NCBI GenBank assembly: GCA_902826615.1
Contig: CADEFN010000004.1
Coordinates: forward strand, 372,001-436,000
DNA from: an uncultured Gemmatimonadota bacterium
GTDB taxonomy: Bacteria > Gemmatimonadota > Gemmatimonadetes > Gemmatimonadales > Gemmatimonadaceae
Direction of reading: 5' to 3'
Length of the DNA stretch: 64,000 nt
This document shows positions 60,056-64,000 of this stretch, in pieces (within the stretch, counting starts at the first letter, position 1; every line of letters begins with the position of its first letter). Made by a program: the position numbers and the translations under genes. The notes under the pieces are model-generated. The model saw nothing but the letters and a program-made list of their open reading frames with translations, had not been told where the DNA came from and searched no databases.

Positions 60056-60131
<76 letters not shown>

Positions 60132-60141
60132 GGATATCACA

Positions 60142-60176
60142 GAAGCCCGGCTACCAACTACATGGCGCCGGGCTTC
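60142..60176 (+). terminator. Terminator of the tRNA operon
   Basis: A perfect 10-bp stem (GAAGCCCGGC at 60142-60151, GCCGGGCTTC at 60167-60176) with a 15-nt loop, then GCTGTTTCTG. Confidence 0.7.
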
Positions 60177-60578
60177 GCTGTTTCTGGGGGATGGCTCCCG
60201 ACCGGAAGGACCGCGCAGTACAGGTAGCCGGCCAGAGCTTGCGGAAGGGAACGCCGAGTATGACGACCGATCATGGCGTCGATTGCTCGCGAGCTTGGCT
60301 ACGGGACCACGCCGTCGCCCGCTTTATTAGGCCATGCGCTCAACGAAAGGGCGTCACATTACTGCGACGCGCCGGATCCGACGATCCGTGACGCCGCGGA
60401 CCGGATCGGCAGCGACGATCGACGCGAAACTGGCTCGGTATTGGGGAGAGCTCGCCTCTGGATAACACGCACCCGATGGCATGTTCGTGATGTTCACTGC
60501 CTAAAACCATGCAGAGCAACACGTTAGAAGCGCACTGGCGCGCATTCACGCGTGCCTCTACAATGCGCCTAACACAAA

Positions 60579-60596
60579 AGCCCGCGGTAGCGGGCT
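60579..60596 (-). terminator. Short hairpin with T tract on the - strand
   Basis: AGCCCGC and GCGGGCT with a GGTA loop; on the - strand followed by TTTGTGTT. It could terminate transcripts arriving from the island to the right. Confidence 0.5.
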
Positions 60597-60619
60597 CCTG
60601 TGGAGATCTCAGGTTGAAA

Positions 60620-60714
60620 GGCCGGTTGTCCCGAGTGGTCGAAGGGTACGGAGCTCGCAACTCCGCTGGTCCCAAAAATGGTCCTCATCGTGGGTTCGAA
60701 TCCCACACCGGCCT
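60620..60714 (+). tRNA. Long-variable-arm (Ser-like) tRNA with anticodon CGC
   Basis: About 95 nt. Acceptor GGCCGGT (60620-60626) pairs with ACCGGCC (60707-60713), and the flanking A60619-T60714 could extend it to 8 bp. D arm resembles tRNA-Ser (CCC/GGG with GAGTGGTCGAA loop). Anticodon stem CGGAG/CTCCG with loop CTCGCAA gives anticodon CGC at 60656-60658. A 24-nt variable region (60666-60689) follows, then a normal T arm GTGGG-TTCGAAT-CCCAC. Spacing between the acceptor, D and anticodon stems is one base longer than usual on each side. Class II form with an alanine-type anticodon is anomalous. Confidence 0.65.
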
Positions 60715-61445
60715 CACAGCTTGGCTTGGCGCTGATTGCCCGCCTAGCGCTCAGATGATACGCGCTAGGAAGCGCTGCGGCAACAGTTTTTTGCGGGTCT
60801 ACCCCTGTTTACCCCCGTTCTGCCTACCAACAACTCCTTATTCACTAGGTGACTTGCGCCGAGCCGACGGCCCCGTCAATTGAAATGCCCCGGCGCACAG
60901 GTACTCCCGGCCGGGCTGTCGCTATTCGCTGGAAAAACCACCGCAAAACCCTCGCACGTTCGCGCGGCTCTGCTCGGCGCCCGGAGTTGCTCCGGGGACT
61001 CCGAAGGGTTCCGCCAGCGCCGCCCGCACTTCCGCCTCGCTCCGGAGGTTGACCTCCACCGTTCGACGGCCGACGAGCTTGGAGTAGCGTCGCTCGAGCT
61101 TCCCGGGGTCAGTGACGCAGTGCCGGCCCTGGCGTGCGACGCGGTCCGCTGCGCGCACGGACTGCGAATCGAGCCCATGCCGGACGCGTCCCCGATTCGC
61201 CCCGCAGGTCGCGCATGACCCTGTGGGCGGCCGCGACCTCATGGAGGCGGAGCAGCTGGCGCACCGCGAACTGCAGAATCAGCGGCCATTTGGCACGAGA
61301 TTCTCCAGCTACTAGGGAGCGACGCCGTGGCGTTATGGCCGGAGCCGCGCCCGCTCAACCATAAGTTCGACCACGAGTCCTGAGTACGCGGAAACTTGGA
61401 GCTCCCAGTATGGGCAACCATCTCGCCTCGGCGACAGGTGACGTC
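60715..61445. other. Decayed DNA downstream of the last tRNA
   Basis: About 730 bp without a convincing gene. Short overlapping frames occur on both strands. One inverted repeat (CCTAGCGC at 60743-60750, GCGCTAGG at 60762-60769) lies 29 bp after the tRNA. The sequence looks like a degraded integration zone, but I find no integrase or transposase fragment. Confidence 0.5.
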
Positions 61446-61961
61446 TCAAGCACCACCCTTCGCCGCCGACGAGCTCACGATCAACGAAAGCATGTTGTGA
61501 ATGCGCTTCAAGACCATCAAGAGCGTCAGCGCGAAGTGTAGGACCAATGCCACCGAGGCGGTCGACCACATCACCGATGGCTGACACAGGTTGGCCTGCA
61601 CCACGAGCGGCACAATCGCGGCGAAAGAGCAAAGGATCGCATACGAGACGTTGGAATAAACCTCCCGAACGAACTGCTGCGCGTGTGTGCGGCCGACCGG
61701 AGCGGGGAGCCGCGAGCCAACATCAGTGATCAGAACCAAGAGGTTGAAGAGGAGTCCAGCAAGGATGGACAGCGCAGTAATCAGCACATTCACCGCCGCC
61801 TCCTGCAGCTTGAAGCCGAACCACCATGAGATGCCGACGCCGACGAGTGGAAGGCCAACGAACAACGCCAGATCGGCCCGGCTCGTTTTTGCGCTCCCTT
61901 GCACTCGCAAGGTGCCATAGTGGTCAAACACGATTCGCCTGACGTCCACCTTGTCAAACAT
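61446..61961 (-). CDS. Small four-helix membrane protein of the two-gene cassette
   Basis: 171 residues. Soluble N-terminus (FDKVDVRRIVFDHYGTLRV), then four hydrophobic segments: ADLALFVGLPLVGVGISWW, AAVNVLITALSILAGLLFN, YAILCSFAAIVPLVVQA and ASVALVLHFALTLLMVLK. It starts 4 bp after the upstream gene, with a GAGGAGG ribosome-binding site overlapping that gene's stop, so the two are tightly coupled. No family recognised. Small multi-helix membrane proteins coupled to a soluble partner are a common effector design in defence operons, which is an inference only. Confidence 0.65.
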   Translation of the reverse strand: MFDKVDVRRIVFDHYGTLRVQGSAKTSRADLALFVGLPLVGVGISWWFGFKLQEAAVNVLITALSILAGLLFNLLVLITDVGSRLPAPVGRTHAQQFVREVYSNVSYAILCSFAAIVPLVVQANLCQPSVMWSTASVALVLHFALTLLMVLKRIHNMLSLIVSSSAAKGGA

Positions 61962-61965
61962 TCTT

Positions 61966-62883
61966 CTATCCTCCTCGCAGCTGCGCGCTCACTTCGGCAA
62001 GAAGCTCCTGTGCCCGCTTGTTGATGCTCTCGAAGACGGGGTGACCGTCTCCTCCTAATTTGATCTCGTCCGTCACATCAACGTATGGCAGTAGGTTCTC
62101 CAAGTTGCCAACTTGCACGGTCCGCACCTTGCCCTCGTGCTGAAGCTTGAGCCGGAGCGTGGAGGGCTTGCCGTCCGTCTCGTCTTCGAACTCAAGGGCG
62201 CTGGCTATGCCGCGCCGTAGTCGCTTCAACCATTCCTGCTCAATGAAGGGCACTCCGGAGCGGGCTCGAAACTCGATAGTCATTCTCCCCGTGCTGCGCC
62301 CCACGTCACCCAAGAAGTGATAGTGGTCCGCGATGTCCGGCGGAACGGAGTAGCTCGTCACCTCAATGGCGATCACGTCGCCTTGGAGGATGGCCCGAAG
62401 GAGGGAAGAGGGAACCACGCGCTTCACATCCAGAATTTGGTCCGGATTCGCATCCTCGAACGCCTGGCGCATCGCGGTTTTGAGCGATTGGTAGACACCA
62501 TGGGGCCCGAAACGTTGCAGGGCCAACAGCGCAACGTTGCTGTCGTCAGGAGCGTCCACTCGGAAGTAAAAGGGAAGAAGTTCCGCGTCGTCCGTGGAGC
62601 GGCGGAATGACTTCTTCATCGTTGTGACGTTTACCCCGTCCGCCGCGTACCCGAACTCGCCAGCCTCGATGGTGCCCCACACGTCCGAGGAATTTGAGCG
62701 ACACGTCGAGACGTGCTGCAGAGTCTGCTCATCTGCGGAGACCTGATTGCGACGGCTGGTGAAGAAAGTCTTCAGAAATCGGTGGAAAGACGCCCCGGAA
62801 GCGGCATTGCCAAGTGGCAGGAATTCTCGTGAGCGGCGCTCCCGCACGCGAAGAGCGTAAGTAGCGAGCGTTATGCTGGGCAT
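61966..62883 (-). CDS. Soluble protein of unknown function, first gene of the cassette
   Basis: 305 residues from the ATG at 62883; the frame runs open further to 62970 without conserved features. Landmarks: a start TLATYALRVRERRSREFLPLG, DVWGTIEAGEFGYAADGVNV, DDAELLPFYFRVDAPDDSNVALLALQRFGPHGVYQSLKTAM, then a basic C-terminal domain VPFIEQEWLKRLRRGIASALEF. I recall similar hypothetical proteins in accessory regions beside small membrane proteins but cannot name a family. No nuclease or NTPase motif is visible. Confidence 0.65.
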   Translation of the reverse strand: MPSITLATYALRVRERRSREFLPLGNAASGASFHRFLKTFFTSRRNQVSADEQTLQHVSTCRSNSSDVWGTIEAGEFGYAADGVNVTTMKKSFRRSTDDAELLPFYFRVDAPDDSNVALLALQRFGPHGVYQSLKTAMRQAFEDANPDQILDVKRVVPSSLLRAILQGDVIAIEVTSYSVPPDIADHYHFLGDVGRSTGRMTIEFRARSGVPFIEQEWLKRLRRGIASALEFEDETDGKPSTLRLKLQHEGKVRTVQVGNLENLLPYVDVTDEIKLGGDGHPVFESINKRAQELLAEVSAQLRGG

Positions 62884-63274
62884 CAGGTGCGGTTCCCAAT
62901 GGTTGGAGGATACTGGAGTATGAGGGCGCGGCAGAGCGGAGGAAAGGGCAAGACTGGGCGATACATCCAAGCGTTGAGTGCCCGCTGGGAGTCTCAGATT
63001 TCAGTCATCCGCACTATGATGGTGATCGTGATGCGGCCCAACGCCTCGCGCCCCGTCGGATTTGGGATATCCCCCTAGCGCCTAGTCATGCCCGTCATCG
63101 TGTTCTTACTAGCTGTGCGATCACGTTATTAGGTAGCCCAGTTCTCAGGCCACGGTGAACTGCGCGTGCCCAAGACCGTGAAGGGGCGGCGACAGCCCGG
63201 CGGCCTCGCGCGCCCCGGCACATCGTGCGCCAATCGCTTGCATCGTGGTGTTCGTCTGGTCCGATGCTGTGAGG
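62884..63274. other. Gene-free stretch upstream of the cassette
   Basis: About 390 bp. It should contain the cassette promoter on the - strand. No RNA gene, repeat or supported reading frame is seen. Confidence 0.55.
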
Positions 63275-64000
63275 TCAGGACATCAGCAGGATGGCCCCAA
63301 GGGACAGCGCCAGCACAATGAGGGCGAGCGACACACGCCGACGGAATGCCCCGCCGCCAGCCACGGCGACAACACCCAGTTTGAACAGGGTGGTGCCAAG
63401 AACGCCGATGACGATGACATCGGGCAGGAGTCCCTGGGCAACACCGGCACCCAGTCCGTTCTGTCTCGCCACGGAGATGGTCAGGGCATCGACGTCGGCC
63501 ATCCCCATCAGAAATCCCGAAGCCAGAAGCCCAGCGTCACCCAGGTAGCGCGTGACGGTGGCAATGGCGTAGATGGCCACCTGATACACCAGCGCCAGCC
63601 TGAGGGCCGCCATGACATTCATGGGATTGCGCCCCGGCTCGTCGGGGACCGCCGCACCAGTGCGCCGGTGTCGCGTGGCGCCTAACGCCAAGAGCACGAC
63701 AAGGAACGGCACCAGAAGCCGCAAGGCCATCGTGCGGCCAAGTGGGGCGTTGAGCACCAGGGCCGTGAGGACAACCCGCGGAAAGAGGACGACATTCGCA
63801 GCAATGGCTCCACTGGCCAGGGCAATGGCGGAGGCCGGTTGTACTCGTGAGAGCCTGGCATACGAGAGCGTCACCGCCGTCGATGACACCAATCCGCCCA
63901 GAAGCCCCGCCACCGTGTATCCCTCCTGCGTACCAACCCGGCGGCGCGCGACGTACCCGGTGAACTCGAGGCCCGTGATGAGCAGCACGATGATCCAGAG
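63275..64000 (-). CDS. MgtC/DUF4010 family membrane protein (partial, start outside window)
   Basis: The frame is open to the window end, so the N-terminus (probably the MgtC/SapB-like part) is missing and about 241 residues are visible. At least six hydrophobic segments and the DUF4010 pattern are present: GGLVSSTAVTLSYARLSR, ASGAIAANVVLFPRVVL, and the strong ASGFLMGMADVDALTIS segment followed by AQGLLPDVIVIGVLGTTLFKLG. The family is an inner-membrane protein of unproven transport or ion-homeostasis role. Confidence 0.85.
   Translation of the reverse strand, partial: LWIIVLLITGLEFTGYVARRRVGTQEGYTVAGLLGGLVSSTAVTLSYARLSRVQPASAIALASGAIAANVVLFPRVVLTALVLNAPLGRTMALRLLVPFLVVLLALGATRHRRTGAAVPDEPGRNPMNVMAALRLALVYQVAIYAIATVTRYLGDAGLLASGFLMGMADVDALTISVARQNGLGAGVAQGLLPDVIVIGVLGTTLFKLGVVAVAGGGAFRRRVSLALIVLALSLGAILLMS

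Follow-up and report, generated by a model that had tools for sequence, protein, structure and literature searches.

The window, meaning the whole 64,000-nucleotide stretch of DNA analysed here, covers positions 372001-436000 of contig C4 in a 5.9-Mb, 99% complete genome of an uncultured Gemmatimonadaceae bacterium. Near its right end a conserved tRNA cluster is followed by the remains of an integrase, by a class II tRNA gene that combines a serine-type body with an alanine-type anticodon, and by two genes without an assigned family:

60056-60130, + strand: tRNA-Pro(CGG), which closes the conserved Ala-Gly-Val-Arg-Pro cluster; the match to congeners breaks off at 60131.
60131-64000, unstranded: left part of a 14.8-kb stretch reaching to tRNA-Arg(TCG) at about 74910 (C4:446910), from congener comparison.
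60264-60407, + strand: C-terminal remnant of a decayed tyrosine recombinase (integrase) gene, from tblastn (E = 4.6e-7, Novosphingobium integrase) and an HMM.
60620-60714, + strand: gene for a class II tRNA with a serine-type body and the anticodon CGC, from ARAGORN, RF00005 (39.5 bits) and an MFE fold that is the cloverleaf.
60620-60626, + strand: acceptor stem, 5' strand GGCCGGT, 7/7 Watson-Crick with 60707-60713, from sequence and fold.
60630-60646, + strand: D arm CCC-GAGTGGTCGAA-GGG, with a loop of serine type and an additional nucleotide at either side, from sequence and alignment with the genome's own tRNA-Ser(CGA).
60649-60665, + strand: anticodon arm CGGAG-CTCGCAA-CTCCG, from the fold.
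60656-60658, + strand: anticodon CGC, from ARAGORN and alignment.
60666-60689, + strand: variable region of 24 nt, whose weak stem GGTCC/GGTCC contains a U.U mismatch, from the fold.
60690-60706, + strand: T arm GTGGG-TTCGAAT-CCCAC, identical to that of the own tRNA-Ser(CGA), from alignment.
60714, + strand: discriminator U73, from sequence and the tRNA list.
61446-61961, - strand: gene without assigned family (nothing above cut-off in Pfam, NCBIfam or PADLOC).
61966-62970, - strand: gene without assigned family (nothing above cut-off in Pfam, NCBIfam or PADLOC).

Two programs place the tRNA where a preliminary description, made from the letters alone, had put it. ARAGORN, which makes about two chance calls per 3.84 Mb of Markov-simulated sequence, calls it at 60620-60715 with anticodon CGC, and the Rfam tRNA covariance model RF00005, a kind of check which that description had itself proposed, matches 60620-60714 at 39.5 bits, above its gathering score of 29 (E = 4.1e-7 for the 351 bp searched, 1.7e-6 genome-wide). 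An Rfam search of the whole window at default filters missed the gene, which is therefore an atypical tRNA, and its RF00005 score is the second lowest of any tRNA in the genome. Its unconstrained RNA fold is a full cloverleaf (-35.0 kcal/mol) with acceptor, D (CCC/GGG), anticodon and T stems of 7, 3, 5 and 5 bp, and a variable stem that pairs as GG-U.U-CC. Sequence, fold and alignment bear out the original view of a class II molecule with a 24-nt variable region, a serine-type D arm and a normal T arm, and ARAGORN bears out the anticodon CGC in the loop CTCGCAA, which reads GCG (Ala). The unusual stem spacing pointed out at that stage is also real: the acceptor and anticodon stems stand 22 nt apart, compared with 20 nt in the own tRNA-Ser(CGA), and the D stem is flanked on either side by an additional position (T60629 and T60647, which may form a U.U mismatch). 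Real too is the capacity of the acceptor to extend to 8 bp through an optional pair, A60619:U60714, with a probability of 0.72 in the fold. The discriminator is U73, compared with G73 in the normal serine tRNAs of the genome, and CCA is not encoded at the 3' end.

The nearest tRNA in the same genome is tRNA-Ser(CGA), at 69% identity, with a 20-nt block identical in the alignment and an anticodon loop, CTCGAAA, from which CTCGCAA departs solely by A36 to C. When the two are aligned, all 20 of the 20 pairs in the acceptor, D, anticodon and T stems are standard in both, and pairing holds in 40 of 40 cells, with seven pairs changed on both sides and none broken, a result that is abolished when the pairing partners are shifted. 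Because of these seven compensatory changes, which fall in the acceptor and anticodon stems, and the lack of any broken pair, the comparison argues that, somewhere and until recently, selection maintained the fold of the molecule. It also divides an alternative put forward at the outset, that of a decayed tRNA-Ser at an integration site: the link to an integration site stands, given the broken integrase tail and the DNA missing in congeners, whereas decay is contradicted by the intact and compensated stems. That the gene is a decayed copy of tRNA-Ser(CGA), or its duplicate at an att site, would suit both this setting and the shared 20-nt block, but is highly improbable in the face of such stems and of an acceptor 3' strand that differs from that of tRNA-Ser(CGA), since an att copy should share precisely that strand.

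In terms of identity, the molecule is a class II cloverleaf closest to tRNA-Ser that carries CGC and not a serine anticodon (NGA or GCU); of the features of tRNA-Ala it has the anticodon and lacks G3:U70, its third acceptor pair being C-G. Selenocysteine tRNAs have a 13-bp branch, a long D stem and usually the anticodon UCA; this identity was rejected on account of the CGC anticodon and the D stem of 3 bp, and the optional 8/5 branch alone would fit it. The tRNA set of the genome, gathered by Rfam search and retrieval of regions, contains ordinary tRNA-Ala with GGC, TGC and CGC and ordinary tRNA-Ser with CGA, GGA, TGA and GCT, among them the normal tRNA-Ser(CGA) and tRNA-Ala(CGC) for which the preliminary description had proposed to look elsewhere in the genome, and the genome has one SerRS above cut-off, at C3:39217-40470. 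As the normal alanine and serine sets are complete, the tRNA at 60620-60714 is an extra one. The codon that it would read, GCG, is used about 38 times per 1000 codons (ten genes).

The surroundings of the gene point to a past insertion. In two congeners, G002 and G001, tRNA-Arg(TCG) comes within 280 nt or 1.6 kb of the end of the Ala-Gly-Val-Arg-Pro cluster, and the 14.8 kb that here separate tRNA-Pro(CGG) from tRNA-Arg(TCG) are missing at the same place. The fragment at 60264-60407 encodes about the last 48 residues of a tyrosine recombinase; an HMM of three integrases run against all frames of the window gives it E = 4.6e-8, against 3.2 for the next-best match, a somewhat flattering value as the model was made from integrases found with this very fragment. 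The tRNA starts 213 bp downstream of this integrase tail on the same strand. Because att repeats, sought around the tRNA and around tRNA-Pro, were not found, and because the 14.8 kb hold, by reading, mostly ordinary metabolic genes, its membership in an old element is read from position only, and we infer from that position that it arrived on an integrative element. No aminoacyl-tRNA synthetase was seen on reading the ORFs of the adjoining 14.8 kb. The two genes at 61446-61961 and 61966-62970, the second of which has a relative (36%) in only 1 of 98 other genomes of the family, are likely mobile cargo; a role for them in defence or phage biology was considered and rejected, with nothing from PADLOC and at most a weak PHROG match of function not known.

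Such a setting leaves a considerable, if minority, chance that the tRNA is an intact gene left behind by a dead element, hardly or not at all transcribed, not aminoacylated and without present function. The broken state of the adjoining integrase agrees with this, as do the lack of any match to a sigma-70-like promoter on the strand of the tRNA, its absence from all relatives searched, the combination of U73 with two U.U mismatches, and the tRNA score that is lowest but one in the genome; selection until recently, somewhere, as argued by seven compensated and no broken stem pairs, speaks against it. An integrase remnant nearby would likewise suit a tRNA of a mobile element or phage that serves counter-defence, its altered anticodon loop resisting or soaking up a defence that cuts tRNAs, a role discussed for phage tRNAs and possibly for plasmid tRNA arrays (PMC12803027). 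This is improbable, however, for a single tRNA outside any array, when two patterns retrieved no class II serine-like CGC tRNAs from IMG/VR and the phage, plasmid and IMG/VR matches to 60620-60714 consist of the generic T arm or short pieces only.

A covariance model built from 60620-60714 alone gives itself 127 bits and any other locus in 395 genomes of the phylum at most 61 bits, and no orthologue was found among these genomes. All 29 of the 29 next-best loci inspected are ordinary tRNA-Ser, mostly CGA. A pattern for class II serine-like CGC tRNAs gave no true case in the phylum sample besides the source genome, and its matches in the family genomes checked and in G320 lie at sites without a tRNA; across 84,980 species it gave three true cases, one in a Gottesmanbacteria metagenome-assembled genome (MAG) and two in Rubrobacteraceae. 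This count is a lower bound, as a tRNA whose D loop departs from the fixed part of the pattern would be missed. The Gottesmanbacteria tRNA (L070:6113-6201, - strand) has an ordinary tRNA-Ser body with G73, CCA and the loop CTCGCAA (CGC) and is, judged by sequence, a cleaner candidate for serine at GCG than the tRNA at 60620-60714. The two Rubrobacteraceae tRNAs (L072 and L073) covary in five pairs, occur as a type in 2 of 39 genomes of their class, and adjoin Fic and transposase genes or a CopG-type gene. In the Rubrobacter MAG that has a class II CGC tRNA, a further class II tRNA with a serine-like body (L088:109-194, that is G221:C62:3358-3442) has G73 and a loop, TTTTTAG, that reads UUU (Lys).

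The CGC anticodon, U73 and a two-nucleotide linker between D and anticodon arms, common to L072 and L073, could suggest that a single family of class II CGC tRNAs, spread by horizontal transfer, takes in both the Rubrobacteraceae and our locus. We consider this very doubtful, as a model of the two Rubrobacteraceae tRNAs gives 60620-60714 57.2 bits versus about 58-66 for ordinary tRNA-Ser, and the loci have no neighbour genes in common. The likeness in U73 and CGC is best taken, on these scores, as one of independent origin, and both the Gottesmanbacteria and the Rubrobacteraceae class II CGC tRNAs are apparently independent of the one studied here.

The reading that we tentatively prefer, at a little under an even chance, is that 60620-60714 is an intact serine-type tRNA, the remnant of an element and derived from a tRNA-Ser(CGA)-like gene, that gives low-level serine at GCG. 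An integrative element once beside tRNA-Pro(CGG) would have left it as remnant cargo, and in its tRNA-Ser(CGA)-like ancestor a change of the third anticodon base from A to C would have turned decoding from UCG (Ser) to GCG (Ala). Charging, if any, would be with serine, as SerRS recognises its tRNAs by the long arm, irrespective of the anticodon, which makes the molecule a candidate substrate of that enzyme. SerRS and AlaRS ignore the anticodon, and the decoding of yeast tRNA-Ser has been changed by anticodon mutation (PMC11415595); in Escherichia coli, allo-tRNAs that combine a serine-type body with a foreign anticodon insert serine (PMC7609411), and so do serine-type bodies with other anticodons (PMC7609411, PMC11415595). 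Insertion of serine at GCG codons, for which the molecule would compete with the normal tRNA-Ala(CGC), is thus possible by analogy, and AlaRS editing should not clear the product, since such editing of Ser-tRNA needs G3:U70 (PMC11415595), absent here. G73 and the long arm are serine identity elements (PMC7609411), and U73 argues for weak charging by SerRS; with a variable stem that is also weak, little charging is to be expected. Strong activity is further opposed by the lack of a promoter match and by the high use of GCG, a common codon at which efficient missense would burden the whole proteome. Weak serylation, if the gene is expressed, is our best reading.

Among known systems, the allo-tRNAs, invoked in the preliminary description, have a 12-bp acceptor branch of the 8/4 or 9/3 type (Mukai et al. 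2017, reviewed in PMC7609411), are sporadic, and include some suspected of an association with transposable elements or toxin-antitoxin loci (PMC7609411). Our tRNA resembles them in being class II, in its serine-type body with a long variable arm, in its non-serine anticodon and in its sporadic occurrence, but its acceptor and T stems are 7/5 or 8/5, not 8/4 or 9/3, and it has U73 in place of the serine discriminator G73, so it does not belong to them: it is allo-tRNA-like in working principle, not by definition. The Streptomyces tRNA-ProX/ProRSx system likewise joins the body of another amino acid to an alanine anticodon, in addition to a full normal set (PMC10365949, PMC11415595), although there the body is of proline type with its own synthetase nearby, and here it is of serine type with none nearby. 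Yeast tRNA-Ser(CAG) and tRNA-Ala(CAG) arose from tRNA-Ser or tRNA-Ala by anticodon change, workable because SerRS and AlaRS ignore the anticodon (PMC11415595), but they are eukaryotic and nuclear, read a Leu codon and form part of an established code ambiguity. Ordinary bacterial tRNA-Ser(CGA) shares with our tRNA the D loop, T arm, long variable region and anticodon loop except base 36, and differs in CGC, U73, the weak variable stem and a D arm with an additional position on either side.

The genome holds a second odd class II tRNA, with a Leu-like body, at G000:C6:380566-380651 (L100:8568-8653; 36.4 bits), whose loop CCTGGAA, with C33, is read as UGG (Pro). It is separated by 15 nt from a preceding SecB-like gene, within an element integrated at tRNA-Lys(TTT) that also carries integrase, excisionase-like, MqsA-family and Rep genes; elements of the source genome therefore do carry such tRNAs. 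A bolder reading, which we regard as unlikely, would have integrative elements of soil-type bacteria bear lone class II tRNAs, whose sense-codon anticodons are foreign to the tRNA body, as deliberate missense tRNAs, often beside toxin-antitoxin or Fic genes, with 60620-60714 and the Leu-type UGG tRNA as two of them and, within that reading, serine at GCG beyond AlaRS editing for want of G3:U70. The occurrence of odd class II tRNAs near elements or toxin genes amounts to four cases without a control, a lead and not a rule.

Should it prove silent, the tRNA at 60620-60714 would be an example of a faultless-looking tRNA that an element leaves in a genome and that annotation assigns to the wrong amino acid. 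Should it prove active, the genome would encode a natural Ala-to-Ser missense tRNA of canonical 7/5 build, less elaborate than the allo-tRNAs, for a codon that is among the most used in the host, and ambiguity of the genetic code would thereby be linked to mobile elements.
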